From positions 30,939,986 to 31,003,985 of the forward strand of contig CAIIXF020000004.1 of assembly GCA_903813345.2 (NCBI GenBank): a stretch of 64,000 nucleotides of DNA. Reading direction: 5' to 3'. The notes under the pieces are model-generated. The model made no database searches. It worked only from the letters and a program-made list of their open reading frames with translations, and was not told the origin of the DNA. This DNA comes from Owenia fusiformis (lineage: Eukaryota; Annelida; Polychaeta; Sabellida; Oweniidae). Below, piece after piece: positions 20,323 through 63,694 of this stretch (position 1 is its first letter; the number at the start of each line of letters is the position of its first letter). The translations under genes were made by a program, and so were the position numbers.

Positions 20323-23300
20323 TTAATAGTCGTCTCGACTCCTATAGCTGCTGCGATTGTCATCACGGCTGCCGTATGAATCACGTTGGCCACCTTAAAT
20401 GTACATCACCAAATTAACAAATGCTTCGCTATTGGACATAAGAAAGACCATGGGCTACATACTAATTACAAAAATAAATTATATCTTCATTCAAGAATAT
20501 GTCTTTTTACCAAATGGCAGATTATTACATTCAACACAGAATTATAATTCTGTGGGAATAGAATTTTATATACATAATAATTATTCTATAATTATCTTTA
20601 GGTGTAAAGTTCTCTTGTCAAGGGGAATTTTCTGTACAGTAAAATTTCATCAATTTGTCCAGAGCTATAAGAGCCAGGGGTCCATTTCTGAAATGTTCAT
20701 AACTTTGTCTTTTTAAAAAGGCAATGACTTGTATAATCATTATATAAGTTTCAACAGTTTCAAAACAGACCCCCAAACTACTCAATTTTGATTGGAGTTT
20801 CTTCAGATATAATTTCAAAATGTTTGTTATTTCTTTTTGTATGTGTAGCCCTGATCTTTTATCTGACGGAGATACACTCTTCTAAAGAATAAACGATACA
20901 ACTATTTCAACCAAAGATGATTTTAAAAATCATTAGTAACAATTGCTCAGATTAAAGGCAAGAGTATTAAGTGATTTAGTAAGACAAATCGAGTCTCAAG
21001 TCAGGGGAATGAAGTGTAGCTGAACTTGGTAGATTTCAAATTGGAAAGTAAAACTTTTGGAAGAGTGTATAAGCCCAATGTTAAATTTTATGGAAATTTA
21101 CAAATATTTTGTGGTTCTTTCGTCGTCTCTTGTTGTTCTACAAGTAAATGTGATGCAATACCCCTATATATAAATCACACCTGGTCATGTATTCAAAAAA
21201 CTACTGTGAAAATGAAGAAAAAAAATTCCGCTGCATGATGGAAAATTCCGCAGCAGGTCTAGCTTCTTTTGACCAACAATAAAGACACATAGAGTTGAAC
21301 GATATTGTCAATTCAATATGTAGAGGGGGAGACTAATAATCTTTATAGCCCTCCACAATTTACTATGCAAGTGAAAAATTAAGCTGTTAAAAAAATTCAA
21401 AATGTATAGGTGAATAAAAATTGTCCTTTAAAATGCTAAAAATTTGAACACATGACCAGTTGAAGGTTTTTTCTATTGGGGTTTATCAGTGGAAGACAGA
21501 TTTTATACATATATCAACACAGAGAATAATGCTGCATATATAATAACATTACATTACCTAATATATATACAATATATATATTTAGATACAATACTAAAAC
21601 TTACCCCTATGTAAGTATTTGAAAGTAAGTAAGTAAGTGAGTATAGATATTTAGACTAGTGACTGCTCACAAAATGAAGGGGACATCACGTCTTGAATTT
21701 ATGGAAAATTCTGCTTCATGATGGAAAATTCCGCTGCATGATGGAAAATTCCGCTGTGGGGTCACCCTAAATAACATCACCATAGGTTATTAAAACAGTT
21801 GGAAATGAACACATTACAGAGGCAATGCTAGTTGTGTAGGCAGTTCCTCAGGAACAAACCATAGAAACTGCCAGCCTTAAGGCCTTGAAGCTTGTTCCTT
21901 GACTTCTCCTGGTAAATCACTTTGAGGAGCTAATTGTCATAAATAAATAAAACAAGTCACACGGTTAATCAGTTTAGCCACTGATATCTCATATTTCATG
22001 AAAACTATTTATTCAAAATTATTCAAAAGAAACAACCATGTTTATTCAGTAAATGAAGAGGGATTCAAGAATTGTTTGTTTTTCTAATTCTAATTTTAAT
22101 AGAGTTCACTACAATAAATGCAACTCCATAAAGTACAAACTGGGGACTATATTCAGCATTGATATTATCATAATGACGACTGGTTACTATTTATGTCAAA
22201 ATAGTTACTATAGTTACCATAGCCACCGCCGCCGCCGCCTCTACCGCCACCCCCATAGCTACGGTTTCCACCACCGCCATATCCACGGTTACCACCACCA
22301 CCGTAGCCTCTATCTCCGCCGCCATAGCTCCTATTTCCGCCGCCATAACCACCGCTGAAACAAATCACACTAACTTTGTCAAAATTTTAGGAACAAAATT
22401 TCTTTTGGTTTGATTCAAAATTACTGTACATCAGAAAAGGAACAAGATAACAGCTAGATAACAACACAAAAGTGTAGCAAATCCCAGCAACAGCCATTTA
22501 TGGCTGCACTGTTCTCCAAAGGATTTTTTCTCAAATGGGTGCAAATTCTGTTTTTTACAATTCAGACGAAAGTTGGTCAAAATGTGCAAATTCTTCATGA
22601 TTTTTCCCATATTCAAGTGGGTGCAAGTCTGTTTTTAAAATCTCAGATGGGTGGCGCGCCCACTTGCTTAAATGATGATGTGATCACTGGGCTGCTTATG
22701 AGCCAAATTGTCATTAAAATTAATTTGCTTTAAAAATTCACATATGAAATATATAAATAATCGCTTCAGTACTTTTCCAGTTAAAGCAAAATCGTATATA
22801 ACACATATAAAAATGCCTCCATTTACATACATTACAATGGCTACCTGTTAGCCAAACTGTTATTAGACAGTGCAATATTCATGTCTTACCCCCCATAGCC
22901 ACCTCCGCCCCCGCGCCTGTCGCCTCCTTCTCTCTTTGGCTTAGCTTTAGCACAATGAACTGTTCTGCCATCCAAGTCCTATAATAAGAAATGTACATAC
23001 TATTGAATAATTTCTTTGGCATCCAAGTCCTATAATAAGAAGTTTACATACTATCGAATAATTTCTTTGGCATCCAAGTCCTATCATAAGAAATGTACAT
23101 ACTATCGAATAATTTCTTTGGCATCCAAGTCCTATTATTAGAAAATGTACGTACTATCAAATAATTTCTTTGGCATCCAAGTCCTATAATAAGAAATGTA
23201 CGTACTATCAAATAATTTCTTTGGCATCCAAGTCCTATAATAAGAAATGTACGTACTATCAAATAATTTCTTTGGTATCCAAGTCCTATTATAAGAAATG

Positions 23301-24598
23301 TACGTACTATCTAATAATTTCTTTGGCATCCAAGTCCTATAATAAGAAATGTACATACTATCGAAATAATTTCTGTGGCATCCAAGTCCTATAATAAGGA
23401 GTTTCCATACTGGGGCCAATTGGAAATTTGTACACTTAATTCTAATGTTATTTATTTTGCTACTACAGGCTCCTCATAGACAAACCAAGCTTGTTTTGTA
23501 TATTTTGATTTTGAAATTGATGTTTCTGAAAAAAAATTGCACTGAAATGAAAAACAATATGGCTGGTGATTTTGGGGAAATTTGAAGGTTTTTTAACCAG
23601 AAGTAATTACCATCTAATTCTTACTGACAGCCATATTGTAATCACAAAATAAGAATAAGAAAAAACAGTAACTCCACAGAGTAGCAAATCCAACTACACA
23701 AAACATATTTTGATATTTAGTGGCAATCTTGGAAAAAAATTCATGAAAAGAGCATATCAGCAATCAAATCCATCCACTGTTTTTTAAGTTATAAAAGATT
23801 ATATTTTTCCTGAAAAATGGTTGACATTTTAGAAATTCACCAACTGGTATTTAGTTATCTAAAGATTATATTTTTTCAAAAAATGGTGGTCCATTTTGAA
23901 ATTCAGCTACCAGTTTTAAATTTTTTCTCGAGCAGAGCTCCTTTGTCCAAAGCTACAGAGAGAACATTTTTCAAAAGTTTTCAATTCATTGATATAAATT
24001 CCATGAAAATGGTTATCATAAACATACCCTGTTATCCATGCCGGCAATAGCATCCTCAGCATCCCGTATCTCTTCATAAGTCACAAAACCAAATCCTTTG
24101 GACTCTTGGGTTGCTCTGTCCATGACTACCCTAACTGTAAAAAAAAAAGTTCGTCATTTCTCGAAAATAAATTCATTACTGGCATGCATCATCCATATGT
24201 CACCATAAAGTTCTACACTCCTGTTTTCAATTGTTAAAGAAAATGGTTCTCAGTAGGCGGACTTTTAGACACAATGGGTCACATACACAGCCAATATAAT
24301 TCGGCACTGTTCTGGCACCGTTTCGACACCAAAATTTGCTACCAGACTAGTCAGTCCATTTGGTGTCGAAACGGCACCGAAATGACGTCGAAAATCAGAT
24401 TGCATTTTGGGGGTGTATGCTGTATATCTGGGAGTAATGGGACTTTATCTAAAAATAAAATGATAAGCAGTTACCTTCTTTGATTGGACCATATTTTTCA
24501 AATGAATCTTTTAGATCCCTTTCTGTGATTGATCTTGATAAACCAGCAACGAAAACTTTAGCACTAATATCTTCACTTCCTCCACCGTTGTAGGACAT
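20323..24598 (-). CDS. CIRBP: Glycine-rich RNA-binding protein, CIRBP/RBM3-like (5 coding exons, 175 aa)
   Basis: Exons on the minus strand: 24603-24475 (ATG at 24598), 24134-24028, 22978-22890, 22354-22218 and 20393-20323 (stop TAA). All borders are GT/AG and the phases (1, 0, 2, 1) join without loss. The 175-residue product matches the family length (about 170). One RRM spans about 15-90, with RNP2 VFVAGL at 15-20 and RNP1 KGFGFVTY at 54-61, whose aromatic residues contact RNA. Then come a basic hinge (KAKPKREGGDRR), a Gly/Tyr/Arg-rich RGG-type tail of about 55 residues, and the end RDSYGSRDDNRSSYRSRDDY typical of CIRBP. Members bind mRNA 3' UTRs, stabilise transcripts in cold or stress, and shuttle between nucleus and granules. 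Intron 3 carries a 51-bp minisatellite copying the exon 3 acceptor, and exon 4 can be read through to another stop. Close alternatives are RBM3 or RBMX-type proteins. Confidence 0.9.
21190..21760. repeat. Scattered short repeat GGAAAATTCCGCTGCATGAT
   Basis: The motif occurs in small clusters at about 21220-21256 and 21700-21762, with a related pair near 19390-19422, inside the last intron and 3' region of the CIRBP-like gene. GGAAAATTCC is itself nearly palindromic. Role unknown. Confidence 0.5.
22168..22217 (-). CDS. Alternative 3' end of the CIRBP-like gene (exon 4 read-through)
   Basis: If the donor GTAACT at 22217-22212 is skipped, exon 4 stays open for 16 codons, adding NYSNYFDINSNQSSL after the glycine-rich region, and then stops. 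This isoform would lack the RDSYGS-type C-terminus. The donor is weaker than consensus (GTAACT rather than GTAAGT), which makes retention plausible. No transcript evidence is available here. Confidence 0.4.
22979..23395 (-). repeat. 51-bp minisatellite spanning the exon 3 acceptor of the CIRBP-like gene
   Basis: About eight units in steps of 51 bp, directly upstream of exon 3 in transcription direction. Each unit contains the acceptor TTATTATAG and the first exon bases, GACTTGGATGCCA against GACTTGGATGGCA in the true exon, followed by about 38 bases of intron-like sequence. Each is therefore a decoy acceptor. Used in the exon 3 frame, the first decoy exon reads D-L-D-A-K-E-I-I and then TGA, so upstream choice would truncate the RRM. 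Confidence 0.85.
24314..24378. repeat. Short inverted repeat in intron 1 of the coding region
   Basis: Arms 24314-24333 and 24359-24378 pair at 18 of 20 positions (core TTTGGTGTCGAAACGG) around a 25-base loop. It could be a small foldback element or an RNA hairpin in the intron between coding exons 1 and 2. Confidence 0.6.
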
Positions 24599-25824
24599 TT
24601 TGACTGGAAATATAAAGACAATTACATGTTGAAATATTCCTCTCCATTGTAAGACATTTGGACTGCATGTAAAAAAAATATTTCTTGGGAGCCGTTATTG
24701 AGTTTAACTTCCTTGCTATGTTCTGTACTCTGACTAATATTTGGCGCTATCATATTTTGTGCTATCTTAATCTGCGATTATTATATTTCGCTAATTTCAA
24801 GCATCTTTGAAATTTCACGGCTATTAATTTCCGCAGATTTGTGACTTTGTCCTGCTTCTCTTTTTAGTTGGCAATTCCTCAACAATGTATCAGAACAACA
24901 TTTTCATTTCAATTTCAGCCATGCTCTTCCCTTCACCCGGAGATTTTGGCTTCATCTTGAGCCATTTTGTAAATGTTCATTTTGATGATGAATTTTCAAA
25001 ATGTAAGAATACAGTAACCTCCCTAAAACCGTATCTTTTAATGCCAAGCACAGAATGATGAAAATATGGTCAATATTGAGCAAAATTAATTCTGAACCAA
25101 GAAATTTGAATATTATCAGCCATGATTGGTCAAAGTAGCTTCAGGATGAGGTTGTCAAACAGTGGTGATTGGTCGTATATTTGGCATATTTTCTTGAATT
25201 TTAAAATCAAATGTCTCAAACTGATGATTTGGATTCAAATGACTGGCTTTAACCTAAGTGCGCATGACAACGATGTGTGCCATGTTTTTTTCTAGTGATT
25301 TTGTTTCATTCCATGGAGTTTGTGTTTCAGTGTAACATCCACAAAAATGGCGGACCGATGACAGAATCAACAGGTAAACATCTGTTAAGGTTGAACTTTG
25401 TCTCACTATAGCGAAAAACAAAATTGCCGTTTCTACTGAAGGATTTTTTTCAAAATATTGCTCTTAGAAAAGACTAAATAAAAGCTGATGTAAAGAGACA
25501 TATGAACTAAGACTACATATTAGTTCAATGAAGGTATGTTTATTACATTCTAGTTAATTTAAAGCAACAGTCTATGAGAGATAGCGAAAAAAGCAATAAA
25601 ACAAACAGGGCTTCATGACCAGCGTAAGGCAACACAGTGGCCGAAGAATAAGGTAAGTTCATAATAACCTTTATATTTAAATCAATACATAATTTATTTG
25701 TGGTTACCTTATTTTGTTCCTTCAACAGTCTGTTTAGGTAGTAAATCAATGTTCTATTAAACTATAAAAAATTTTAATTTTGATTGCAGCCATTTTTAGG
25801 TCTCGCAGGATCTTGAGATAGTAA

Positions 25825-26335
25825 GAAAGTAAGTCCGAAAGTAAAGATTTGCTACAAAATAACTCGCATTAGCTAAATATGATTGGTTACATGATCTCTC
25901 AATGGCAATGCCCATGCGCGCTTAAAGTACAGTGCACAAAAAATAGAAATGAAAGTAAGTCCGAAAGTAAAGATTTGCTACAAAATAACTCGCATTAGCT
26001 AAATATGATTGGTTACATGATCTCTCAATGGCAATGCCCATGCGCACTTAAAGTACAGTGCACAAAAAAATAGAAATGAAAGTAAGTCTGAAAGTAAAGA
26101 TTTGCTACAAAATAACTCGCGTCAGCTAAATAAGAATGGTCACATGATCTCTCAATGGCAATGCCCATGAGCACATAAGTACAGTGCACAAAAAATTAGA
26201 AATGAAAGTCCGAAAGTAAAGATTTGCAACAAAATAACTCGCGTTAGCTAAATATGAATGGTTACATGATCTCTCAAAGGCAATGCCTATGCGCATGTTT
26301 AGTACAATGCACAAAAAATTAAAAATGATGCGCAC
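25825..26335. repeat. 126-bp tandem repeat, 4 units
   Basis: Units of about 126 bp start with GTAAGTCCGAAAGTAAAG near 25829, 25955 and 26082, with a shorter fourth. Each contains ATGATCTCTCAATGGCAATG. They lie in the intron between the untranslated first exon and the start-codon exon of the CIRBP-like gene. Confidence 0.85.
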
Positions 26336-26984
26336 CAAAATCAAAATTTCTCCACTTTAATTACAAATTACATGTAACAAGTAGGACTTATGGTCACCAC
26401 ACGTCATGAAAAAGGCAAGTTATATTCAATTATCTTCTTTAATACCATTTCTTATCCCAGCATGCAGGCTGGAAATTGGAAAAAAAACTACTACCTAAAA
26501 CAGTCTATTTCAACATTCCCTCAGCTGGCTTTTGAGCCAGCTGTGTTCAGTAAGATATAACCAACCAACCAATCACTTTGCATGGCTGAAGTTTAAATTT
26601 CCTAAATCACAAGACAAGATGCCAAAATTTTGAGTGGTCATCCTAGGCAAAGGGAGTTGGCATTTGTGTGCTTGATTGACATGGGCCACTATGTATAAGA
26701 AATATGATTGACTTACTTGTTTGTAAAAATTATGCCAACTTTTTAATATTTGCAACAAATGCTTCAGAACTAGCTTTGCACTGTAACAGGGATATCGAGT
26801 ATCCTTTTCATAACAATAAATTTTTAAATTATGATTTATTTAGCTATAAGGAGTGATTGTTGATACTTATAGGATATCCTATGATTTCGTGGAATATCAT
26901 TTTTTTTCTACGAGGTGATATTGATATCAATATCACGAGTAGATTAAAATTATATTCTGAAAAAATCATAGGATGTTCTTATTA

Positions 26985-27222
26985 TCCTACACTTACAAGG
27001 AGTGTACTAAATGTGTAATATCATTGCAAAATGAATTTCATGCCAAATAGAGCCAATTTGGCGGGAAATCAACAAGCGGAGTATATCGTCACAATATCCT
27101 CCGCATATTGGGTTTTCCGGAGTATATCGTCATGATATCCTCCTCCCGGAGTATTCATTTTGCCAATAAATATCAAATTTATTTTTTAATGTTATTTTAG
27201 TACACTAAGTGTTAGGATAAAG
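26985..27222. mobile_element. Candidate small inverted-repeat element
   Basis: The ends read inward as ATCCTACACTTA...GTGTACTAAA and, from the other side, ATCCTAACACTTAGTGTACTAAAATAA: imperfect inverted termini of about 25 bp around roughly 190 bp. The interior has two near copies of GGAGTATATCGTCA. No target duplication was identified. Confidence 0.4.
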
Positions 27223-27727
27223 TTGATTCTCTTCCGTTCGTAGTTTTCATATCAAATATCGATGATAGAATTGATAAAAATTTTAAAGTTTATTCTGATT
27301 TTATTGCATATATCCATGTACATGTATTTAAATATATATAATCCAGAGGTCGCCTTTAATACAACTTCCTGTGAGTTTGTGAAAAATATTTGCACCAAAA
27401 AGATTTGCACCAACCTGAGAAAAATTCCTAAAGAGGGAGATCACTGCAACGGTTTGCATAATAATGAATCTATTTTCCATATGATACTGCACTATAGTCG
27501 TTCGATTGCTTTTCTAGTTATTGACGAACAATCCAATGTGAAATGTAGAAGCATTTAACTTGTAGGCTTAGGCCTTTGTGATTTTGAATTTTTTCATTCT
27601 CGCCGTTTCAGTGAAATTTGCAATGGATTATCTCGTATGTTCTACACAACAAAAGCATATAAGTCATCGAAATAATTAAACTTGCCCATCGAATGGTACA
27701 AACTGAAAGGTGAAAATGTTTACTTAC

Positions 27728-27830
27728 CTGTATTTGTTGAGATATTTGTTAAAATGCAGAATCTACGAAGAAGAATGACCACTCGGTAGTAAAACAAGAT
27801 GGCTGACACGACTCACGTGGTGGCGCTGTT
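27728..27830 (-). promoter_or_regulatory. Promoter region and untranslated first exon of the CIRBP-like gene
   Basis: On the minus strand an E-box CACGTG is followed by GCCATCTTG, a YY1-type element often placed at the start site of RNA-binding and ribosomal protein genes, and then a short untranslated exon ending ACAAATACAG with the donor GTAAGT at 27727. The next acceptor, TTTCCAG, precedes the start-codon exon at 24603. The exact start site is inferred, not seen. Confidence 0.55.
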
Positions 27831-30078: not shown

Positions 30079-30625
30079 TATGTGATAGTTATACAAATTA
30101 AAATATGTCCAGTAAAAGAAAATATTATCTGCCCAACACAAAAAATATATTTCACTTTTTGTAGTTTTTCAACATAGGGTCTATGGGGAATCTCCCCGAC
30201 CTAGAAGTCACATTTTCAAAGAAAATTAAATTTTCAAAGTTGATTAACCCTTTTCAAAACCTCATTTTTAGATGTAATTTTATATGTAGATTCCAAATAT
30301 GACACCAGTTTGACTGAATTGTGAATTTTTAATGACGTAAATCAAGATTATTTCTACTCGCATCTAGAATATTGAATACTAAGCAAGAAGCGCAGAGCGG
30401 CCATTTTGAGAAATGACGGACATTTTTCCATGTTCATAATGAATCTTGATTAATCCTAACGTTTTTATATGATTTAGGTTATCTTGCATTCCCTTGCGTC
30501 ACTTCCGTCCATCTGTTAGCTCTTGTGATGGAAAGGATTTGTAAAGGGAGTGGACGGGGATCAGTAAGGCTTCGAGCAAGACTAAGATTGTTGATATCAA
30601 AAAAGGATTTCAAAATAGTATACTA

Positions 30626-31475: not shown

Positions 31476-31549
31476 TACAAAAGATTAAGTTTCTGTTGAT
31501 CACTCAACACTTTTTATTTGATATTATATCTTAGTACTATAAATAACAA

Positions 31550-35240: not shown

Positions 35241-35242
35241 TA

Positions 35243-40153: not shown

Positions 40154-40156
40154 AAT

Positions 40157-40203
<47 letters not shown>

Positions 40204-44689: not shown

Positions 44690-46075
44690 ACCGTGATCTC
44701 TGTCTCTGTGACCAATGACATCAACCCAGTGGCCCCCTGTGGCCCCAAAATGTTGCCCAGAAAAGCATCTCAGAGGCCCCAAGTGGCCTCTAAAAGCACT
44801 CCAATGGCCCCAAACTCATTCTAGAGGCCCCAAAAGCTTCCCAGTTGCCCCCCAGTGACCCCCAAAAAGCATACTAGTGACACCCAGTGGCACTAAAAAG
44901 CATCCAAGTGGCCCCATTATGCCCCTTAAAAGCATCCTAGTGGCCCCCGAAAGCATTCTATTGACCCCTGTGGCCCCAAAAAGCATTCCAGCGGCCTCTA
45001 AAAGCCCCCTGTGGACCTCAAAATCATTCTAGTTGCCCCCAGTGGCCCCATAAGCTTCCCATTTCCCCTGCCAGTGGCCCCCAAAAAGCATACTAGTGAC
45101 ACCCAGTGGCCCAAAAAAGCATTCAAGTGGCCCCATTATGCCCCTTAAAAGCATCCTAGTGGCCCCCGAAAGCATCCTATTGACCCCTGTGGCCCCAAAA
45201 AACATTCCAGTGGCCTCTAAAAGCCCCCTGTGGACCTCAAAATCATTCTAGTTGCCCCCAGTGGCCCCATAAGCTTCCCATTTCCCCTGCCAGTGGCCCC
45301 AAAAAGCATACTAGTGACACCCAGTGGCCCAAAAAGCATCCAAGTTGCCCCACTATGCCCCATAAAAGCATCCTAGTGGCCCCCGAAAGCATCCAATTGG
45401 CCCCCCGTGGTCCAAAAAGCATCTCAGTGGCCCCAGGTGGCCTCTAAAAGCACTTCAATGGGCCCTTAAATCATTCTAATGGCCCCCAGTGGTCCAAAAA
45501 GCTTCCCATTTGCCGCCCCAGTGGCCCCCCAAAAAGCATACTAGTGACACCCAGTGGCCCAAAAAGCATCCAAGTGGCCCCATTATGCCCCCTAAAAGCA
45601 TCCTAGTGGCCCCGAAAGCATCCCATTGGCCCCCTGTGACCCCAAAAAGCATCTCAGTGGCCCCAAGTGGCCTCTAAAAGCACTCCAATGGGCCCCTGTG
45701 GACCCTAAAATCATTTTAGTGGCCCCCAAAAAGCATACTAGTCACACCCAATGGCCCAAAACACATCCAAGGGCCCCATTATGCCCCCTAAAAGCATGTA
45801 AGTGGCCCTTGAAAGCATCCTATTGGCCCCCTGAGGCTGCCAGAAGCATGCAAATGGCTCAGCATGGCCATCAAAAGCACCCTAGTGGCCCCCTGTGACC
45901 CCTAAAAGCATCCCGGTGGCCCCCAAGCCCCAAACTTATTCCAGTGGACCCCGTGGCCCCCAAATGCATCCTAGTAGACCCCTGTGGTCCCAAAAGAAAT
46001 TTAAGTGGCCCGATGGCATCCAAAACATGCAAGTGGCCCTCAATAGCATGGTAGTGGCCCCCTATGGCCCATGGA
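44690..46075. repeat. GC-rich irregular minisatellite (AGTGGCCCC / AAAAGCATCC)
   Basis: Dozens of copies of a core CAGTGGCCCC plus AAAAAGCATCC in units of roughly 25-30 bp, grouped into higher-order blocks (for example 44870-45060 resembles 45080-45290). It stands out as C-rich in an AT-rich window. Frames across it give Pro/Ser/Lys-rich translations that are a by-product of the repeat. Confidence 0.9.
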
Positions 46076-50617: not shown

Positions 50618-50639
50618 TTGGCCAGGTCCGACAATATAT

Positions 50640-52179
50640 TATGTTTTACGAGCATGAAATATCAAACAACCCCCTTTCAAGAGCTGGTTGCAAACATACT
50701 TATAACAAGTTAGAAATTATCGAAGGACATGATACATTATTTTTTATGTTGTCTGAGTCTATATGAAAAAAAATTGAGTTTTGTCCAAAAATCATCATTA
50801 AAGCGGTTTTTAAGAATTAATAAGCAATATTTTTAGTATATATCGTATGGTCATGATAGCCAGCTGTGTTGACATTAAAATAGCTAACATTAAATGTCGT
50901 TGATATAACCCTAATGTACATTTCATAACACTAATGGACAGGGGAGGGGTCGGATGACAGTAACAAGTAAGGAACCATATTTTAAGTCATTCAAAACTCT
51001 CGAGGGGTGTATTAAAATCTCAAAAATAGGTCAAGTGAGGTCAAAAGTAGGTCAAAGTAACATAGGGGTGAGCTTTTTCGAATATTTTTTTTACTTATTT
51101 CAATTAAAAATGACATATAATGTTTTTTTACCCAGAAAATAATACTAAATGTGATAGATGTACATAGTATCTAACCTTAAGGACAAAAAACGTGGGTAAA
51201 TACCTTTCCTAGGCTAGATCCAAAGATAGGTAATTTGGTCAAAAACTTTACAAATGACATATCGAAAAACGAGGGGATGGGAGACAAATCAACGCCCAGG
51301 ACCTAAGATACTGAATAGATTTTTTTGATTATCTCATAGGACATACCCCTGGGCCCTGGCTATAAAATAGTGTAAAGATTTTGGAATATTGGTTGAGTAT
51401 TTGCTGAGAAAATTTGTTTTTAGTGCATATTGGCGAAAACGTAATGTTACAAGTTGAAAATAAGTGTATTTGAGCCAGAAGTTGCAGTATTGACAAATTT
51501 TCATGGTTTATTTTGCTTCTCATTATAGTTGCTATATGTCTCTACTTAAGAAAATAAAAATAACCAGCTTATATTTCTATTCTACGAAACTATAGAGATG
51601 GTGTGATTTTCAAGCAATTTCTGAAAAAAAGTTCCCACCATCCTTACTCACCCAAATTACCCCCAATCACCTCGAATTTTGCACCAAAAATTATCTTTTA
51701 TCTGTAGCTATATAAACTAAGGTTATAAGAAAATAGTTTTTGTTGGCAGAGAAGTTCCAGGGAAAAATCCGAAGAAGGGGGTCCCCCCTGTACACATTAG
51801 GGTTAACTTACACGGCAATAACGTCATTTCTAAGGGCGATATAGTGAAATATTGGACCGAGGGCAAAAGACCCAAGGTCCAATATTTCACTATATTGCTC
51901 GCAGAAATGACGTTATTAGTATTATTACCACCGTTAACGACCAGGACTGAAACCGCAAAATCTTACGCATTGAACGATATCTAATTTCCCGGGGAAAATT
52001 GCCGGTCCAGAATATATTCTAGACCGGTCCATATGGACCACCACTATGACGTCACACATTTCTCAGGTCGATATCGTAAAATAAGCGCCTTCTAAACTAG
52101 CACTAAAACCCCTAGAACCGGCCCGGCAAGGTGGTAATAATTATCGTTAATTTGCCCTTATGTTCTATTTTTATTTCAG
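50640..52179. other. Presumed intergenic or intron sequence before the signal-peptide exon
   Basis: No exon recognised. Contains the hairpin at 51817-51917 and a short palindrome with GACCGGTCC near 52023. Confidence 0.4.
51817..51917. repeat. Inverted repeat with 42-bp arms
   Basis: Arms 51817-51858 and 51876-51917 pair with a few mismatches (outer AATAACGTCATTTCT, inner AATATTGGACC) around a 17-base loop. Probably a small foldback MITE or the core of one. Confidence 0.8.
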
Positions 52180-52243
52180 AGAGAATTTCTGCCGACGGCG
52201 TGGGTTTTGTTTTTTGTGGTAATATCCATTCTGACCAATGGAG
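52180..52243 (+). CDS. Signal-peptide exon of a secreted protein (partial gene)
   Basis: Acceptor TTATTTCAG, then a 64-base exon reading REFLPTAWVLFFVVISILTN, a basic/polar start and a hydrophobic core typical of a signal peptide, then the donor GTAAGA. It ends in phase 1, compatible with the EGF-like exon at 53664. The start codon must be in an earlier exon that I did not find. The donor side is repeated in the following minisatellite. Confidence 0.55.
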
Positions 52244-52738
52244 GTAAGAACCTTTGTATTTGGTTGAAATGTAATAGTTAAAGAACACCTTTAGAGTTCA
52301 AAAAATTGGTTTTGTTCTAATTTCCAATTTGCCCAATGGAGGTAACAACATTGTATTTGGTTGAAATGTAATAGTTAAAGAACACCTTTAAAGTTCAAAA
52401 AAATTGGTTTTGTTCTAATTTCCAATTTGACCAATGGAGGTAACAACATTGTATTTGGTTGAAATGTAATAGTTAAAGAACACATTTAAAGTTCAAAAAA
52501 TTGGTTTTGTTCTAATTTCCAATTTGACCAATGGAGGTAACAACATTGTATTTGGTTGAAATGTAATAGTTAAAGAACACCTTTAACGTTCAAAAAATTG
52601 GTTTTGTTCTAATTTCCAATTTGACCAATGGAGGTAACAACATTTGTATTTGGTTGAAATGTACTAGTTAAAAACACCTTTAAAGTTCAAAAAATTGGTT
52701 TTGTTCTTTGTGATAATTTCCATTCTAACCAATGGAGA
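52244..52738 (+). repeat. 98-bp minisatellite spanning the signal-exon donor, about 5 extra copies
   Basis: Steps of 97-98 bp. Each unit includes the exon end TTTGACCAATGGAG and a donor GTAACA, then TTGTATTTGGTTGAAATGTA and AAGTTCAAAAA. The last unit, near 52700-52738, resembles the parental exon more (TTTGTGATAATTTCCATTCT) but has lost its donor (GAGATC). Confidence 0.85.
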
Positions 52739-53075: not shown

Positions 53076-53110
53076 CAGGGTGTCAAATAGTATGTCCCCC
53101 CCCCCACTTA
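53076..53110. mobile_element. Isolated mariner-type terminus
   Basis: TA followed by CAGGGTGTCAAATAGTATGT and a C-run, close to the terminus at 55759. The opposite end was not found. Confidence 0.35.
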
Positions 53111-53663: not shown

Positions 53664-53777
53664 CCAATTGTACCAAAAACTGTTCGGACAATCCATGTGA
53701 CGACTTTGCAAATTGCACAGATACCGATGATGGTTGCTATACATGTGAATGTCAATCAATGTATGCCGGGGATGCAT
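53664..53777 (+). CDS. EGF-like domain exon (partial gene)
   Basis: Acceptor CTTCCAG, then a 114-base exon, phase 1 at both ends, then the donor GTGAGT. It encodes an EGF-like module: CSDNPCDDFANC, then TCECQSMYAGDA, with the final cysteine codon split by the intron (T|GT). Two extra cysteines (NCTKN and DGCYT) may form an additional bond. EGF modules mediate extracellular protein contacts. Phase 1 matches the upstream signal exon, so they probably belong together. The last cysteine needs the next exon to begin with GT or GC; the exon at 63380 begins AT, so at least one exon between them is missing or the genes differ. Confidence 0.75.
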
Positions 53778-53923
53778 GTGAGTATATTGTTGTTCAGGAA
53801 AACATCGTCAATTACGATTTGTCAATTCAATCGTCTTCCACGATTTTCCCGTTTCTCGAAACTTGACGATTATGTTCAATCTACGATTATATCGTGGATG
53901 GAGATGATATTAACGACACCTCA

Positions 53924-54235
53924 AAGATGTGAGTACCGTAAGCAAACACCAAATTCGAAAATTCAGAACAATACTTTGCACACATGGCATTCGTGATCAA
54001 CTATAAAACGCTTACCCCCCCATAGTGTTATATATCAAAATGTACCTGTTCATATAGGAGTTCGATTGATCGACATCAAATTATAGGGAGTCCGGTTACT
54101 TTTTGAGATTTTAGCGTCATTTATTGTAACTCGCGTTTGCGACCATTCGCTTATTTCTGAGATGACGGGCACACACATAGTAAATATGCTCACGTCAGAA
54201 CTATTTTGACCTATTTTGACATGGCGCCGGTAGTT
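53924..54235. repeat. Diverged dispersed copy of the 1260-bp satellite
   Basis: Matches the first part of the unit at 305-1564 (GAGTACCGTAA, ACACCAAATTCGAAAATTCA, AAACGCTTACCCCCC) with scattered changes. It interrupts the intron between the EGF-like exon and its donor-side minisatellite. Confidence 0.85.
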
Positions 54236-54321
54236 CACTTCCAGTAGCATTTGTAACCCCGTGTTAAAGGGCCGTTATAATCCGAGAACATTCCTGAAAA
54301 ATGAAACACCCTAATGGAATA

Positions 54322-55725
54322 CTAATTTATGATGGCTATATACGTGTGAATATCAATCATCGTATGAAGGAGATGCATGTGAGTATATTGTATAGGGAAT
54401 ATTAACTTATTCATGAGGGCTTTACATGTGAATGTCAATCATCGTATGAAGGAGATGCATGTGCGTATATTGTATAGAGAATACTAACTTATGAGGGCTT
54501 TACATATGAATGTCAACCAATGTATGAAGGAGATGCATGTGCGTATATTGTATAAGGAATACTAACTTATGAGGGCTTTACATGTGAATGTCAACCAATG
54601 TATGAAGGAGATGCATGTGCGTATATTGTATAGGGAATACTAACTTATGAGGGCTTTACATATGAATGTCAACCAATGTATGAAGGAGATGCATGTGCGT
54701 ATATTGTATAGGGAATACTAACTTATGAGGGCTTTACATGTGAATGTCAACCAATGTATGAAGGAGATGCATGTGCATATATTGTATAGGGAATACTAAA
54801 TTATGAGGGCTTTACATGTGAATGTCAACCAATGTATGAAGGAGATGCATGTGCGTATATTTTATAGGGAATACTAACTTATGAGGGCTTTACATGTGAA
54901 TGTCAACCACTGTATGAAGGAGATGCATGTGCGTATATTGTACAGGGAATATTAACTTATGAGGGCTTTACATGTGAATGTCAACCAATGTATGAAAGAG
55001 ATGCATGTGAGTATATTGTATAGGGAATGTTAACTTATGAGGGCTTTACATGTGAATGTCAACCAATGTATGAAGGAGATGCATGTGCATATATTGTATA
55101 GGGAATACTAACTTATGAGGGCTTTACATGTGAATGTCAACCAATGTATGAAGGAGATGCATGTGCGTATATTGTATAGGGAATACTAACTTATGAGGGC
55201 TTTACATGTGAATGTCAACCACTGTATGAAGGAGATGCATGTGCGTATATTGTACAGGGAATATTAACTTATGAGGGCTTTACATGTGAATGTCAACCAA
55301 TGTATGAAAGAGATGCATGTGAGTATATTGTATAGGGAATGTTAACTTATGAGGGCTTTACATGTGAATGTCAGTCATCGTATGCCGGAGATGCATGTGA
55401 GTATATTGTATAGGGAATACTAACTTATGAGGGCTTTACATGTGAATGTCAGTCATCGTATGCCGGAGATGCATGTGAGTATATTGTATAGGGAATACTA
55501 ACTTATGAGGACTTTACATGTGAATGTCAACCAATGTATGAAAGAGATGCATGTGAGTATATTGTATAGGGAACACTAACTTATGAGGGCTTTACATGTG
55601 AATATCAATCATCGTATGCCGGAGATGCATGTGAGTATATTGTATAGGGAATATTAACTTATGAGGGCTTTACATGTGAATATCAATCATCGTATGCCGG
55701 AGATGCATGTAAGTATATTGTGTCG
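54322..55725 (+). repeat. 78-bp minisatellite spanning the EGF-exon donor, 18 units
   Basis: Steps of 78 bp (54415, 54493, 54571 and so on). Each unit copies about 45 bases of the EGF exon end (ACATGTGAATGTCAA...GGAGATGCAT) plus about 33 intron bases (ATATTGTATAGGGAATACTA). The donor in each unit is GTGAGT, GTGCGT or GTGCAT; by my reading seven are GTGAGT, one (the last) is GTAAGT, eight are GTGCGT and two GTGCAT. Confidence 0.9.
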
Positions 55726-55758
55726 GGACTACTCTTTTAGAAACTTATGAGGCCTATA

Positions 55759-56364
55759 CAGGGTGTCAAATAAGTCCCGTCCCCCCCCTCTACAGCCAAA
55801 ACCAACATATTTGGTACCAAGTGTGATATATCATTGAAAAGGTCTTCCAAAGTTACGTTGATTGGCATATATCTGACACATGTCAATCAATCTCATAAAT
55901 TTTTACATTGTATCAATGGAGTTGACCATATGCCTAGAAACATGGCAATTTGGCGTATTTTGCAGGATTTTAAGAATCCGGTATAAGAAAGCTCAAGGGA
56001 CCAAAAGATGACTAAATATGTTTATGGCGATGAATTTAACCAATTTCTGGATAGGGTTAGATGTGTAGAAAATAGAGGTGCAAGGAAAGTGGTGAAAACA
56101 TTTTTGTAACAAGTGGAATGCGAAAAAGATTAACTTTTTGACGTATTTCTGAGGTCATATCCTTGTCATTTTGACCCAAAAAAGCTAGTTAAAGGAGGGC
56201 ACGTTAACTATAAAAGACATCATAAAAAAATAGGTAAATTCCATCCAAAATACTTGAGAATTGGTGAGTTAACATAACTTTGGATGATCTTTCCAATGGT
56301 ATATCACACTAGGTACCGTCTGTTAAGGTTTTAGCTGTAGCAGGGGGGACGGGACTTATTTGAG
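55759..56364. mobile_element. Mariner-type MITE with damaged right end
   Basis: Left end TA then CAGGGTGTCAAATAAGTCCC; right end reads GGGACGGGACTTATTTGA and then runs into the perfect palindrome instead of the expected CACCCTG. About 600 bp, no transposase seen. Confidence 0.6.
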
Positions 56365-56462
56365 AATATATTCCCGACACAGTGTACAGGGTGTCCCGAA
56401 AGTATACCCCCCCCCCCATACTTTCGGGACACCCTGTACACTGTGTCGGGAATATATTCTCA
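56361..56462. repeat. Perfect palindrome, 45-bp arms, poly-C centre
   Basis: Arms 56361-56405 and 56418-56462 are exact reverse complements around a 12-base centre, A followed by eleven C. The inner part is the mariner-type terminus TACAGGGTGTCCCGAAAGTA facing itself; the outer part is GAATATATTCCCGACACAG. Confidence 0.95.
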
Positions 56463-56914
56463 ATTAAATTAGATATTGAAGTCAAGTCCCTGTCCAGGGC
56501 ATTTAATTGTTTCAAATTCTATTCATTGATTGTATTCTTTTTTGACTCATACTACTCGGAAAGATTTAGCTTTTCCTTGAGGTGTCACTACGGTAAAAAA
56601 CACTTTAAAAACGAAGCCTGGCAAATCCAATGGTGTGTATAGTAAGTTTAAGTGTATGTACAGTGGTCATTTGAGATATGTATGTAAAGCTTAGGTCAAG
56701 TACTTTCTAAATGTACTTTTCTTAGAAAAAAATACAAGAATATAGTACCGTAAACTGGTACTACTTTATTCGTTATTCGTTGATTGTCATCGGTGAAGCA
56801 GAGGTTTTACCTAAAAATGAGTCCCTATGTTGGCGTAGTTTAATTTTAAAATCGATAAGCAAAAAACTTATTTTAAATATAGTGTACGAAGCTTTGAAAG
56901 GGACATTTTTACAC

Positions 56915-57639
56915 AAAGGTCCATCTGCAGTATAGCAAGTGATTTTAGACAGTTAATATTGAACCATGAATACTTTCTGGGCATGCATACAGTGTTTTTT
57001 AGAACAATATGTTCCCTTTCAGGTAAAGTACCCAGGGTGATAAAAATATCAATCGAACAATTCGAAAATTTATGAATAGGACCCCATGTCAACAATGTTT
57101 TCAAAATGTTGAACCTATTTACTCAAGAGAGGATCTTCTTTTTCTGGTTTCTATTGCACGAAACGATTATTCAACAAGGGGTCTTAAACTTCTTCAAAAG
57201 TAAAATGGTATTGAAAGTCTAGTTTTGAAGATATCAATTTTCGATGACCAAAATTATACCGAAAACAATGGATAGCACGAGTTTTCCTATGGGAAAATAA
57301 CATGGGATATGTGGTTTTTAACTTTAACGCATTTCAATACGCATCCCCTTTTCAGAAAGCATTAATATAGTGTAGAAGAAACTTTTGATATGTTTATATT
57401 AAGAAAACAAGATCCTCTTTTAAGAAAATGAGCCTAACATTTTTAAAAAGTGCAAAGGTGGGGTCCTTATCCATCATCTTTCAGAGAGTTAGAATAACAT
57501 TTTACTATCATGGAGACTTCACTTGAAAGAAAGCATATTTTCCAAATAAAAAAACACTGTATTGATGACCAGAAAGTACCCAATTAAGGTACTTGATACG
57601 ACCGTCTAAAATCACTTGCCATACTGCACATAGACCTTT
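56915..57639. mobile_element. Foldback element, family F, copy A
   Basis: 725 bp bounded by AAAGGTCCATCTGCAGTAT and its mirror ATACTGCACATAGACCTTT. The arms are about 300 bp. The centre contains ATGGATAGCACGAGTTTTCC. A second copy lies at 61713-62882, which defines the boundaries. No coding capacity. Confidence 0.8.
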
Positions 57640-57649
57640 GAAAAATCAA

Positions 57650-58245
57650 TTTTATCCCAGGTGATTGTTTTGGATTGCAGTTAATTGTTATTTTTTCCTA
57701 AGTGATTATTATTGATCATTAGTGATTGTTCTCGCTTGAATGTGATTGTCCTTGATCCCAAGAGCTTGTTCTTATTTCTTAGTGATTGTTTTTGATCCTA
57801 TGAGATTGTTATTGAGTGCAATGGTTGTTCTTTTGTCTAAGTGATTATTCTTGATCATAATTGATTGTTCTCGACTGAAGGTGATTTTCCTGATCTCATG
57901 TGATTGTAGGTGGTTGTTCTTGTTCCTTGGTGATCGTTCTTGATCCTAGGTAATTGTTCTTGATTATGGTGATAGTTAATGATCTTAAGTGCTTGCCCTT
58001 GATCCCAAGTGATTGCTTTTGACCCAAAGTGATTGGTTTTGATCCTTTATAATTTGTTATTGATATTTAGTGATTGTTCTAGATCCTATGTGATTGTCAA
58101 TTTATCGTGGGTGATTATCCTTGTTCCAATGTTATTGATTTTTATCATTTCTGATTGTTCTTCATTGTAGGTGATATTTGTTGTTCCCAAGTGATTGTTT
58201 TTGATCCTTTTTGATTGTATGATCCTAAGTGATTTTTCTAAAATA
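57650..58245. repeat. Irregular 18-24-bp minisatellite (GTGATTGTTCTTGATCC)
   Basis: About 25 imperfect copies of GTGATTGTTCTTGATCCTA. It begins right after the foldback copy A. Confidence 0.85.
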
Positions 58246-58396
58246 ATTGATACAAATGGTATATTCTGTTTTTTATTTTCTTTTTATTTTAGATAAGTAT
58301 TGTGAATTTGCATGAGTTTGTTGAGAGTCAAGAAAATAAAATTGAATTTCTTTTTGATTGTAAAAATGTTTTGTAAAGCTTCGTAATAGTGTCAAG

Positions 58397-58681
58397 ATGA
58401 AGGTTATATATGGGGGACGCAGAAATATAATGGTCATTGTATGGTCTAATTCACTCGAAAATGCAATATGTACCATAGAAATTGAATTTCGTGAATCCTT
58501 TCAATATTTTCCAATGCATTACCGTAATGACACTTTGACATTCAAACGACAAAAATGTTTTTCGTTTGCTGAAATGCTAATAGAGATTTCCACCCCATGC
58601 AGACAGATCGCCTTAAATTACATTCATACGATGCGAGACTCAACATCCACCAGTACAGTCGAAACATTTTGTGACCTATGA
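58397..58681 (+). CDS. Hypothetical open frame, 94 codons
   Basis: ATG start, stop at 58679-58681. Not recognised; pattern IMVIVW...CTIEIEFRES suggests beta strands, with weak resemblance to the frame at 47943-48230. No splice borders are obvious, though a good acceptor (TTTATTTTAG) lies near 58292. May be a chance frame or gene fragment. Confidence 0.25.
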   Translation: MKVIYGGRRNIMVIVWSNSLENAICTIEIEFRESFQYFPMHYRNDTLTFKRQKCFSFAEMLIEISTPCRQIALNYIHTMRDSTSTSTVETFCDL

Positions 58682-58759
58682 AGCAAGTTAAATGTTTATT
58701 GCTTGATAATTATTGAAAGAAACTAAGCTTGCTCTAGGAAATATTCTGCCTTACTTATT

Positions 58760-61165
58760 AATATATCACTTAAAACTGGAGTTTTCCCAGGCACCTTAAA
58801 ACTGCCAAAATTACTCTGTATATAAAGGGGCTATGTTCACCTTTTTACTTATTATAGACCAATCTCACTTCTTAACGTTTTCTTTAAGTATTTATGAAAA
58901 TTATGTATAAAAAAGTCACACTATTTTTGGATGAATTCAAATAATTAAGAAAAGATCAATTTGGTTTCAGAAAATCTTATTAACCTTTATGGCAATTCTC
59001 ACCTTTTTAAAATCACTTCGAGATTCTCTTAATAATAATAAATTATGTATCAGTCTTTTTCTTGACATATCGAAAGCTTTTGATACGGTTGATCACACTA
59101 TTTTGCTGGAGAAGCTTCATTATTATGGAATTCCTTGTGTTGCAAACTCTTGGTTTAAATCTTACTTAACAGATAGGAAACAAAATACACAATATAAAAA
59201 CCATGTGTCAACCCAACAAATATTGCATGTGTAGTAACCAAGGGTCTATCCTAGGACCTCTGATTTTTATTATCTATGTAAATCACCTCAGTTTTGCTTC
59301 TGCTATATTGAAGTTTGTACTTTTTGCAGATGACACCAGTATTTTACATTCAAATAAAACAAAAGAAGAACTCGTCATCTGTTGCGAATAATGAACTTAA
59401 AAAAGTCAATGTCTGGTTCATGGCTAACAAAAACTACAAGGGGAAATAGCAAAAATTATACACATATCATATACTTCTAAGCATTTACTTGAGAACTGAG
59501 CGAAAATGAAAACTTATAGTGCTCTGATTCATTCGGGGCTTGATTACTGTTATATAATTTGGGGTAGAAATTTGCCAGGTTAATAACAAATTTTAGTAAG
59601 TTAGCTCATGCCGCCCCTTTATTGAAAGATCTTAGAATCTTAAGTATTTATGACATATTTACACACCCGGTGATCGTACAAAAATGATGGAGGGGGGATT
59701 AGGCGATTTCTGCAAGAAAACACAACAAATTCGGAAGAATTATTTTTTCAAGAGAAAATTTACAACTGAATTGCCAAATGAATAGGCGCAATGCATGGCA
59801 AAATATGTTAGGTCATCTCATATTTTTTATGAACTGATACCCTTCTAAGATATATGAGATCTATTAAAAAAGGTGCAACATCACCAACGTGCAAAAGTCA
59901 ATGTTTTTGCTATAAATCGGGCAACAATGGTCTACACGACCTGTAATAAATAGGTATAAGGGACGTTATTATCACAATACTTATGACATTGTTCACTTTT
60001 CAAAGTTAGTTTCCATGCGTTATACAAAAATAATCAAAATAAATTAATTGAGGATGGAGGGGGGATCGGATGGAGGGGGGGGGAGTTATATATTTTTATG
60101 ATTGAACAAATTCACAAGAACTCGTGTATTTGAAAAAACTAAACTCAGTACCCCAGCAAGAAACTGGATATTATATCTCTGGAGAATGAAAAATATGAAA
60201 ATTTGGAGTCATAAGAATAAATTCAAGTAGCATGTCTTATCATGTCTTACATACACGTGATCCCCCCTCCATCCGACCCTCCCCCCTCCATCCTAAATTA
60301 ATTTATTTCGATCATTTTTTGTATAACGCATGGAAACTAACTTTAAAAAGTGAGTAATGTCATTAGTATTGTGATAATAACGTCCCTTATATCTATTTAT
60401 TACAGGTCGAGTAGACCATTGTTGCCCGATTTATAGCAAAAACATTGACTTTTACACGTTGGTGATGATGCGCCTTTTTTAATAGATCTCATATCTTAGA
60501 AGGGTATCAGTTCCAAAAAAATACTAGATGACCTAACATATTTTGCCATGCACTGCGCCTATTCATTTGGCAATTCAGTTGAAAATATTCTCTTGAAAAA
60601 ATAAATCTTCCAAATTTGTTGAGTTTTCTTGCAGAAATCGCCTAATCCCCCCCCCCTCCATCATTTTTGTACGATCACCGGGCGTGATTTAACTTCAATG
60701 TTGCCAACTTTGCATACCAAAATATGAATACCTGACAAGTTCCCACATCACCTTTTTAAACATTTCTCTTCTACAAATACTGACCATGAAACTAGTAATA
60801 AAGACCGACTACGTTCATTTATGTTTAAAAATGAATTTGGGGAAAATCAATAAAAGTAGTACTATCGAGAGTATGGAACGGCGTAAATGAAAACATCATT
60901 ATGTCTTCTCCTATATCTTTGTTTAAATTTTTTTTGAAATCACTTCTCCTCTCCACCTACATCTAATATCAAATATCATGTCATGGTTTGTTCATGTTTC
61001 ATTGCTAATCTAGTGATCCTTATCATCAAGGAATGTGCTCTTGCTATATATATATAATATACTACAAAATAATATGTAATGTGGTGTAAACGCCCAGCGT
61101 CTTGTGCATACCGTGTAATTCAAATTGTAATAATTAAATATGAAAATAAATATAACATAACATAA
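58760..61165 (+). pseudogene. Decayed LINE (non-LTR retrotransposon) reverse transcriptase, split by a foldback
   Basis: Reverse transcriptase pieces in shifted frames: FLDISKAFDTVDH (motif A, catalytic Asp) near 59065, then QGSILGPLIFIIYVN and the catalytic FADDTSI near 59260-59345. An upstream piece is like the N-terminal region of the domain, and a C-terminal tail piece follows near 60840-60960. A stop at 59232-59234 and frameshifts break it. The 3' end finishes in a short ATAAC repeat near 61155, as some CR1/L2/Jockey-type LINEs do. The foldback at 59667-60686 is inserted in it. Confidence 0.8.
59667..60686. mobile_element. Foldback element with arms of about 420 bp, inserted in the LINE
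   Basis: Outer ends CCCGGTGATCGTACAAAAAT and its reverse complement. Arms about 59667-60086 and 60252-60686 match closely, with G-runs on one arm and C-runs on the other (GATGGAGGGGGGAT). The spacer of about 165 bp has no coding capacity. Confidence 0.9.
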
Positions 61166-61712
61166 CAAATGGTGAAAAGCAGTCACATTGAGTTCTATAA
61201 GTATGAGAAATTACGATATTAAGATAAAACCGCAACGAAATATTTGTAAAAAAACAAGGAAGGTATCGCAACAGATTTTAAACAGTCGTATGTTGAATTG
61301 CAGCTGTTTTCTGCTGATTTAAAAGAACATAAGTTAGTCCTATGCACCATTTAAAGGCAAGGTGCTTATAGAGATGATAAAATAAGTTGAACTTCGAGAC
61401 AAGGAAGGTGCAAACACCCCACCTACATTTTTTTTCAAAAATGTTTTCCTGTTTATAAAATTTGTCATCGAACGTGTCGAATACTACAAGTCAATACTAC
61501 ATCTTTTGGAAATCTCCCCTCCTGTGTTTGATGCCTAGAGAAACGGGAGCTCTGCTAATATACTGGCTGCCATTGTTCATAAAAACATTACCTTTAATAT
61601 CCCAAATTGTATATGGTGATACCTAGGGACAAAGGAGCTCTGTTCGTAAAGAAATCGTCAAAATGGCCACTATCATCCAAACATTTTTTGTTCAGTGGGA
61701 TTTGCTACTCCT

Positions 61713-62882
61713 TAAAGGTCCATGTGTAGTATGGCAAGTGATTTCAGAAGGTCATATCTTTCACCATGAGTACATTCTGGCCATAAATACATTTTTTATA
61801 AAAACAATATGTTTTCTTTCAAGTGAAGTTTCCGTAATAGTAAAATATCAATCCAACTCTCTGGAAAATTATGGTTTAGGACCCCATCTGGGTACTTTTT
61901 AGAAAATGTTAGGCTTATTTTCTAAAGAGATGATCTTGTTTTTCTCGATTTAACCATATCGAAAGTTTCTTCTACACTATTTTAACACTTCTGAAGTTAA
62001 AAACCACATATCCCATGTTATTTCCCATAGGCGTGCTATCCATTGTCTTCAGCATAATTCTGGCCATCGGAAATTGATATCTTCAAAACTAGACTTTCAA
62101 TACCAGTCTACTTTTGAAGAAGTTGTAGACCCCTTTTTAACACCCCAGTCACATTTCCTGCGGCCGCCGTGCGGTCTATCATTTCTGCGGCCAGTTGCTT
62201 TTCTACGCTCGCCGTAGAATTTCTGCGCTCTCATACTTTTGCAGTCACATTTCACACGGCAGCCGCACGGTGAATTTTAAATTTCTGTTGATAAATAATA
62301 CTTTTTTCATTTTATTTACATTCATAAATGTTATTCATAGTGCTAGGATGTAATATCAAATGAAAAGTGATCATGAAACATTGACAAATAATGATTCAAT
62401 CTTGTTGAGCCAGTTGATTTCTACGGGGACCTCAGAAATGAACAAATATTATAACTCCGAGTTATAATTTCTACGCCTTCCCTGCGGCCTGTAAAAATCT
62501 GCACACGCCGCACGGAGGCTGCAAGGCGAGCGTAGTTTTTCTACGCTCGCCGCAGAAATTCACCGATTTAATTGATCTGCGGTCGACTTGCGGCCGCCGT
62601 GCGACAAATGTGACTGGGGTGTTAATAATCTTTTCATGCAATAAAAATTTGAAAAGGAAGATCCTTTTTGGTAAATAGGTTCACCATTATGAAAAAAAAT
62701 GTTGACATGGGGTCCCTTTTCAGAATTTTCCAATATTCGATTGATATTTTTATCATTATGGGTACTTCACTCGAAACAAAACATATTGTTTTAATAAAAA
62801 CAACTGTATTTATGCCCAGAAAGTACTCATGATGAAAGATATGACTTTCTACAATCACTTGCCATACTGCACATGGACCTTT
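61713..62882. mobile_element. Foldback element, family F, copy B
   Basis: Same family as 56915-57639: ends AAAGGTCCATGTGTAGTAT and its mirror, centre GCGTGCTATCCATTGTCTTC. About 685 bp once the 485-bp TTAA element and its duplication are removed. It ends directly beside the 42-bp minisatellite. Confidence 0.8.
62141..62621. mobile_element. TTAA-flanked MITE (piggyBac-type), 481 bp
   Basis: Termini CACCCCAGTCACATTT and AAATGTGACTGGGGTG flanked by TTAA (62137-62140 and 62622-62625), the target site of piggyBac transposases. The inner ends are also inverted and rich in GCGGCCGCCGTGCG, unlike its AT-rich surroundings. No transposase. Nested inside foldback copy B. Confidence 0.9.
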
Positions 62883-62883
62883 G

Positions 62884-63379
62884 GGTTTTCTAGTTGTCTA
62901 TAATTTGTCATTTGCAGATGGGTGTGACTGTATAATTGTCTATAATTTGCCATTTGCAGATGGTTGTGACTCTGTAATTGTCTATAATTTGTCATTCGCA
63001 GATGGATGTGACTCTATAATTGTCTATAATTTGTCATTTGCAGATGAATATGACTCTATAATTGTCTATAATATGACATTTGCAGATGAACGTGACTGTA
63101 TAATTGTCTATAATTTGTCGTTTGCAGATGGTTGTGACTCTATAATTGTCTATAATTTGTCATTTGCAGATAAACGTGACTCTATAATTGTCTATAATTT
63201 GTCATTTGCAGATGAACATGACTCTATAATTGTCTATAATATGACATTTGCAGATGAACGTGACTGTATAATTGTCTATAATTTGTCGTTTGCAGATGGT
63301 TGTGACTCTATAATTGTCTATAATTTGTCATTTGCAGATAAACGTGGCTCTATAATTGTTTATTATTTGTCATTTGCAG
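62884..63379 (+). repeat. 42-bp minisatellite spanning the acceptor of the next exon, about 12 units
   Basis: Each unit reads TCTATAATTGTCTATAATTT then GTCATTTGCAGATGGTTGTGAC: pyrimidine-poor intron-like bases, the acceptor TTTGCAG and the first exon bases. The unit is 14 codons long and free of stops, so the whole array is one open frame with the exon at 63380. Confidence 0.9.
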
Positions 63380-63694
63380 ATGGTTGCGATCTTATAATTG
63401 TCGACTTTGACCTAATCATGCCGCCTGAAGATAAACCCTCTTCTGTAGACGGCTTGTACAGAAAACAGAAGGAAAAATGGAATTCCCGTTCAGTTTGGGC
63501 AAACGAAGATGCTTCGTTGTTCCTTTACAATTATGGTGGCGGGGAACCTTATTGGGAGATATCGCCTAATCCTGATGGTGGTAGTTATATTGCCTTGACT
63601 GGATCTATTTTTTGGGCAATACCTGTTACGAATGATTGGTGTTATAATAAAGGTAGTGGATTGTGTTATCCCGACTCCTATCCTGTACGATGTG
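63380..63694 (+). CDS. Extracellular Trp/Tyr-rich module exon (partial gene)
   Basis: Acceptor TTTGCAG, a 315-base exon (105 codons, phase 1 at both ends), donor GTGAGT. After a hydrophobic/acidic start (CDLIIVDFDLIMPPE) it shows DGLYRKQKEKWNSRSVWANE, LFLYNYGGGEPYWEIS, SIFWAIPV and paired cysteines toward the end. The layout G-x-Y ... R-x-VW ... YLYxx...YW-x-I ... W is a small module I associate with secreted and membrane multidomain proteins of marine invertebrates, without a firm family name. Equal phases let it be shuffled or skipped cleanly. Possibly part of the same gene as the EGF-like exon. Confidence 0.6.

Follow-up and report, generated by a model that had tools for sequence, protein, structure and literature searches.

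Minisatellites spanning splice junctions in an annelid contig and in myosin and kinesin genes: chance placement and targeting

We examined tandem repeats at intron borders in a 64,000-nucleotide stretch of contig CAIIXF020000004.1 (the window), filed under the annelid Owenia fusiformis, and in myosin and kinesin genes from across the genome. In the window, three minisatellites straddle a credible splice junction and copy it, at donor 52243, acceptor 22978 and acceptor 63380. Junction-copying arrays are also present in unrelated genes, and a recurring process is supported. The kind of structure is already known, as the ‘mirages’ of amphioxus. We favour, at a probability of roughly three in four, the reading that the arrays are junction-spanning minisatellites of this kind, that is, untargeted tandem duplications that are tolerated while splicing continues at the original site. 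Targeting is not required to explain most of the pattern.

Arrays at splice junctions in the window

The initial annotation described four minisatellites as straddling and copying splice junctions. Tandem Repeats Finder (TRF), run over the window, recovers all four tandem arrays, and the junctions were predicted from sequence and translation (Table 1). Three of the arrays do lie across their junctions, whereas the one assigned to donor 53777 does not.

The best single piece of evidence is a comparison of the exon beginning at 63380 with its paralogues. This exon, 23 bp of which lie inside the 42-bp array, has no Pfam match at E 0.1, and a protein search with it returned two relatives, at loci labelled L065 and L066. 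L065 lies 49 kb downstream of the window exon, and its acceptor is likewise expanded into a 42-bp array, in register with that of the window; 25.6 copies were counted up to the end of the retrieved sequence. L066, which is on a different contig, shares the acceptor and the start of the exon, but only a single copy of the junction is present in the 1.4 kb retrieved. All three exons share their start phase and the end ...CCTGT...GATGTG/GTGAGT (YPVRCG; slashes in motifs mark splice sites), and the common acceptor and phase of the two paralogues bear out the straddling of acceptor 63380. This acceptor is expanded in the window and L065 and single-copy in L066, so an ordinary junction can turn into an array. 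Judged by eye, TATAATTGTTC in the L066 intron and TATAATTGTC in the window exon may represent a short direct repeat on either side of the junction in its ancestral form, which is only a lead. The domain encoded by the three exons is fast-diverging, phase 1-1 and extracellular-looking. At 37-640 of L066 (minus strand), upstream of the paralogue’s acceptor, lies a transposase-like open reading frame (ORF) of 199 amino acids, of Tc1/mariner type by eye.

Read in the frame of the exon, both 42-bp arrays are mostly free of stop codons, with open frames of 300 and 358 codons including the exon, and their acceptor copies mostly retain AG (11/11 in the window array, 21/23 in L065). Such features could indicate that arrays are retained by selection as alternative splice sites or coding repeats, as could a kinesin gene, L040 (see below), in which 11 of 17 copies outscore the used acceptor. 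However, nonsynonymous and synonymous changes among the units stand at 12:4 (11 window units) and 14:4 (20 L065 units), compared with 94:25 and 97:23 possible changes, as expected without protein constraint, and the arrays thus need not be coding. In addition, the periods of straddling arrays are divisible by three in just 4/13 cases, and no donor copy in either array of the EGF gene outscores the used donor (4/4 and 11/18 copies are weaker). Retention by selection is therefore very doubtful. A coding role for the 42-bp arrays was set aside as unneeded, given a substitution pattern that looks neutral.

The first of the EGF-gene arrays, with a 97-bp unit, begins 32 bp within the putative signal-peptide-like exon whose donor lies between 52243 and 52244, in agreement with the initial annotation. 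Four extra copies in this array retain the GT as GTAACA, compared with GTAAGA at the used donor; the final copy, at 52737, is without GT. A large inverted repeat, spotted by eye, is found at about 51815-51925 of the window, with arms tccaatatttcactatat and atatagtgaaatattgga.

The second, 78-bp array of this gene starts 539 bp downstream of the EGF donor (53777/53778), which is outside any array. The last 38 exon bases and 13 intron bases of this junction match 18 times at 87–92% identity, all within 54316-55733, so the array copies the junction without straddling it, and the claim that it does straddle the donor was rejected. Because a 290-bp dispersed repeat sits between them, the array was displaced from the donor at least in part by this repeat, although some 250 bp of the gap is left unexplained. 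At least 39 other copies of the dispersed repeat were found at 89–91% identity, most sharing both end positions, along with one partial match.

Acceptor 22978 belongs to an RRM gene on the minus strand. When its three exons are joined they encode an RRM_1 domain (86 bits) that spans the junction, which confirms that this acceptor is straddled. Exon 2 ends in AACAGG/GTATGT (window about 24027) and the following intron is 1049 bp long; the 51-bp array comprises the end of this intron and just 10 bp of exon. Mobile elements inserting at AG/GT sites, similar to introners, might also have brought in such units, as splice signals lie within the units and a dispersed repeat is present in the EGF intron. 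However, the units include exon bases of the host gene itself, and the region of the RRM array, the sole array searched genome-wide, matched only itself in a search that skipped very common words. An introner-like source is thus highly improbable.

Table 1 Features of the window that bear on the junction-copying arrays.
Feature	Position	Strand	Basis
RRM gene exon 3 (DLDGRTVHCAKAKPKREGGDRRGGGGGYG); low end approximate	22900-22978	-	Translation, Pfam
51-bp x 8.4 array copying the RRM-gene acceptor TTATTATAG/GACTTGGATG	22969-23398	-	TRF, reading
RRM gene exon 2	about 24028-24135	-	Translation
RRM gene exon 1	about 24476-24598	-	Translation
Putative signal-peptide-like exon (LPTAWVLFFVVISILTNG), donor GGAG/GTAAGA at its end	52180-52243	+	Read from sequence
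97-bp x 5.1 array across donor 52243	52212-52707	+	TRF, copy reading
EGF-domain exon, phase 1-1, donor T/GTGAGT	53664-53777	+	Pfam EGF_3, E 3e-4, under gathering score
290-bp dispersed repeat between EGF donor and 78-bp array	53924-54213		Genome matches
78-bp x 18.1 array, detached from exon; units match the final 38 bp of the EGF exon plus the donor region	54316-55733	+	TRF, sequence comparison
42-bp x 12.1 array copying acceptor TTTGCAG/ATGG	62894-63402	+	TRF, reading
Phase 1-1 exon, ...YPVRCG/GTGAGT; expanded paralogue L065, single-copy paralogue L066	63380-63694	+	Sequence, protein search

Junction-straddling arrays in myosin and kinesin genes

Pfam searches with Myosin_head and Kinesin located exons genome-wide, and from these we fetched 19 myosin and 21 kinesin stretches (the first set), then 18 from the leftovers (the replicate set). 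The myosin stretches were hand-picked from the Pfam hits (89/92 rows entered), and the repeats in them were already known when the test was devised; for the kinesins, loci were chosen by rule, as clusters of at least three hits within 9 kb. Exons were modelled with a spliced aligner against PDB sequences, and arrays were identified with TRF. Two loci were left out of the straddling counts, L002 for its alternative exons and L040 because its array could already be recognized among the hits. Without L002, the two sets held 49 arrays of score at least 100 (36 in the first set including L040, and 13 in the replicate), 17 of which lay outside strictly modelled introns. The looser of our two exon rules was introduced after the strict rule dropped clear exons in L009 and L014, and the minimum straddle overlap was cut from 5 bp to 3 bp after L008 had been seen.

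Both the window and the myosin loci have a GC content of 35%. The best matches of the muscle myosin, the first eight rows at 868 to 847 bits, are mollusc chains in the PDB; Myosin-6 and Myosin-7 (cardiac) follow with 801 and 798 bits and the first ‘Myosin heavy chain, muscle’ with 737. The GC content and the myosin matches argue for a spiralian rather than amphioxus. Searches for mitochondrial COX1 and for GFP gave no match, which carries little weight, as the GFP search also missed all of its controls. Phosphagen kinases, considered as an annelid marker, did not decide the matter, their best matches being named creatine kinase and arginine kinase. One myosin heavy chain exon (QTYSGLFCVVINPY...) occurs in twelve tandem versions at C9:37986009-37994334 (the end of L001, and L002); these resemble mutually exclusive exons.

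A junction-straddling array was present in 12/235 modelled introns under the looser exon rule and in 10/216 under the strict one. The 13 straddling arrays, among 34 sampled under the looser rule, came from nine loci of these two gene families, on five contigs, and involved seven donors and six acceptors, so that both 5’ and 3’ borders are hit. This recurrence is the part of the initial annotation’s exon-edge mechanism that stands. Unit lengths ranged from 23 to 260 bp. One myosin intron (L014, 2090-3889) is nearly all array, with a donor unit of 83 bp repeated 7 times and an acceptor unit of 91 bp repeated 12 times; further examples are donor arrays of 34 bp (L008) and 41 bp (L009) and a 61-bp acceptor array (L019). 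The acceptor of L040 has 18 copies at a spacing of 158–159 bp that include 127 bp of exon. Assemblers can misjudge copy number, and artefacts of assembly could in principle have made or inflated such arrays. However, the units differ among themselves and the pattern is seen at many unrelated loci, which leaves this explanation with almost no weight.

The initial annotation considered chance placement on junctions unlikely. To obtain a chance expectation, we collapsed all arrays of an intron to one unit each, dropped the unit in question at random, and counted it as straddling if it reached at least 3 bp into exon. Because introns are short (median 380 bp in the sample), a random unit often straddles a junction; in the window introns the probability is 0.13 at 22978 and 0.17 at 52243. 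With strict exons, 10/31 arrays straddle compared with 6.8 expected (P 0.075), or 6.6 expected without collapsing the other arrays (P 0.059). In the first set, 11/26 straddle with L040 included (6.4 expected, P 0.011) and 10/25 without it (5.9 expected, P 0.019), while the myosins alone give 3/11 compared with 2.3 expected. None of the six arrays in the replicate set straddles, where 0.67 were expected. Overall, observed counts are 1.5–1.6 times the expectation with collapsing and 1.5–1.8 times without. Thus the argument from chance, which took no account of intron length, fails, although a weak excess may remain. Later growth of an intron lowers the computed chance, and the excess may be overstated for this reason.

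Two further comparisons bear on whether duplication is seeded at exon edges. Junction 40-mers had a nearby copy at 4/133 donors and 6/124 acceptors, compared with 4.8% of 252 intron 40-mers lying 30–60 bp away, and were therefore not enriched in this ungapped test, which was confined to Pfam-supported exons and misses several visible arrays; the corresponding counts were 14/607 for exon interiors and 229/1891 for introns. Among the 13 straddling units, the fraction made up of exon lay between 0.12 and 0.88 and is compatible with a uniform distribution (Kolmogorov-Smirnov p 0.63), so the break points have no fixed offset from the splice site.

The alternative is a process aimed at splice junctions, such as breakage coupled to transcription or splicing, or template switching at sites of pausing, that seeds tandem duplication at exon edges. 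It would account for the weak excess, for the L014 intron with arrays at both its donor and its acceptor, and for the 18 acceptor copies of L040. However, the strict count, the empty replicate, the 40-mer test and the absence of a fixed offset all speak against it. Seeding at exon edges, the other part of the mechanism first proposed, is not shown by these results, and we consider targeting unlikely.

Several observations nonetheless weigh against the favoured reading. The looser exon rule gives 13/34 straddling arrays compared with 8.25 expected (P 0.021), or 7.25 expected without collapsing (P 0.005), and the first-set kinesins without L040 give 7/14 compared with 3.7 (P 0.012). Straddlers outside modelled introns (L019 and probably L051, L056 and L057) are uncounted, and the excess may be understated in this respect. 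A real preference for junctions, up to about two-fold, is possible. The 42-bp consensus of the window differs from that of L065 at 5/42 bases while the exons are 41% identical, and close units with diverged exons are not what simple drift predicts without exchange between the loci. Finally, unused copies that drift should become weaker; when splice-site copies were scored in register in 19 arrays, the median intact copy was weaker than the used site in 8, equal in 8 and stronger in 2 (L030 and L040), with no intact copy in 1, which is not significant by a sign test (P 0.11). In the window, each of the four arrays has a median copy that scores below the used site; these strengths are in line with drift of unused copies, without proving it.

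Other repeats of the window

At 6299-15433 of the window there are direct repeats resembling long terminal repeats (LTRs), 6506 bp apart, each with an array of 19 x 91 bp and with equal TRF scores. Between these coordinates lies a gag-like ORF of 904 amino acids with an aspartyl protease match (minus strand, 10050-12764); no pol was found among the listed ORFs of at least 100 amino acids. A 280-bp sequence occurs three times, 1260 bp apart, at 311-3108; the three copies are one and the same dispersed repeat, and this spacing recurs at C1:1309924 and C1:1311184. At 44826-45994, units of AAAGCATCC type form a nested array whose higher-order periods are about 200–220 bp.

Proposed origin and relation to amphioxus mirages

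In the untargeted reading that we prefer, tandem duplication would by chance affect a short segment that includes an exon-intron border. Of the resulting splice-site copies, the outermost one, next to the exon, would stay intact and the extra ones would fall in the intron; for this reason the mRNA need not change and the duplication could be tolerated by splicing, presumably with the exon-adjacent copy as the one used. The array would then grow and be partly homogenized, probably through slippage or unequal exchange. Where introns measure about 380 bp and segments of some 20–260 bp are frequently duplicated in tandem, junctions would often be hit without targeting. Array lengths are near whole unit numbers with a small surplus, as expected from simple tandem duplication: 31 of 48 arrays with a period of at least 30 fall within -10 to +20 bp, compared with 23.4 expected (P 0.009), a range chosen after some values had been seen and a set that includes two copies of one LTR array. 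AG or GT is kept by many but not all units, for example 18/18, 21/23, 3/16 and 0/1.

The initial annotation mentioned minisatellites at intron borders in amphioxus, and this precedent is indeed in print. The reports describe ‘mirages’, minisatellite-like tandem copies of exon-intron borders in the Adh3, globin, PGBD5 and troponin C genes (PMC3087553, PMC3902484). Like the arrays described here, they copy borders at both donors and acceptors, many with AG or GT. Occurrence in cephalochordates reflects where such arrays have been described and does not define their structure. In contrast to that work, we measured a sample frequency and a chance expectation, and our arrays are known from the sequence of one assembly. 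Human variable internal tandem repeats in segmental duplications are likewise minisatellites, some at exon-intron borders, that alter gene structure (PMC2812944); half of them lie in coding sequence and copies were compared between recent paralogues, whereas here the copied junctions are intronic. A further case shares tandem duplication across an intron-exon border (PMC4974935). There a new intron arose, whereas our units derive from existing junctions. Literature searches, judged from their listings, returned no report of junction-copying arrays under the name ‘mirages’ outside amphioxus.

A broader proposal is that, in what is probably a spiralian lineage, a process linked to splicing or transcription makes tandem duplication about two-fold or more commoner at exon edges than in neighbouring intron, and that the arrays continually supply decoy sites and new introns in roughly one of 20 introns. 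We regard this as conceivable but improbable. The chance calculation is itself a caution against reading placement at junctions as targeting where introns are short. If the host is Owenia fusiformis, mirages are not a speciality of cephalochordates. With such arrays in about 5% of sampled introns (12/235), and a single-copy paralogue for one of them, it becomes possible to test how the spliceosome passes over as many as 17 near-identical additional acceptors and whether junction-copying arrays contribute to intron gain.

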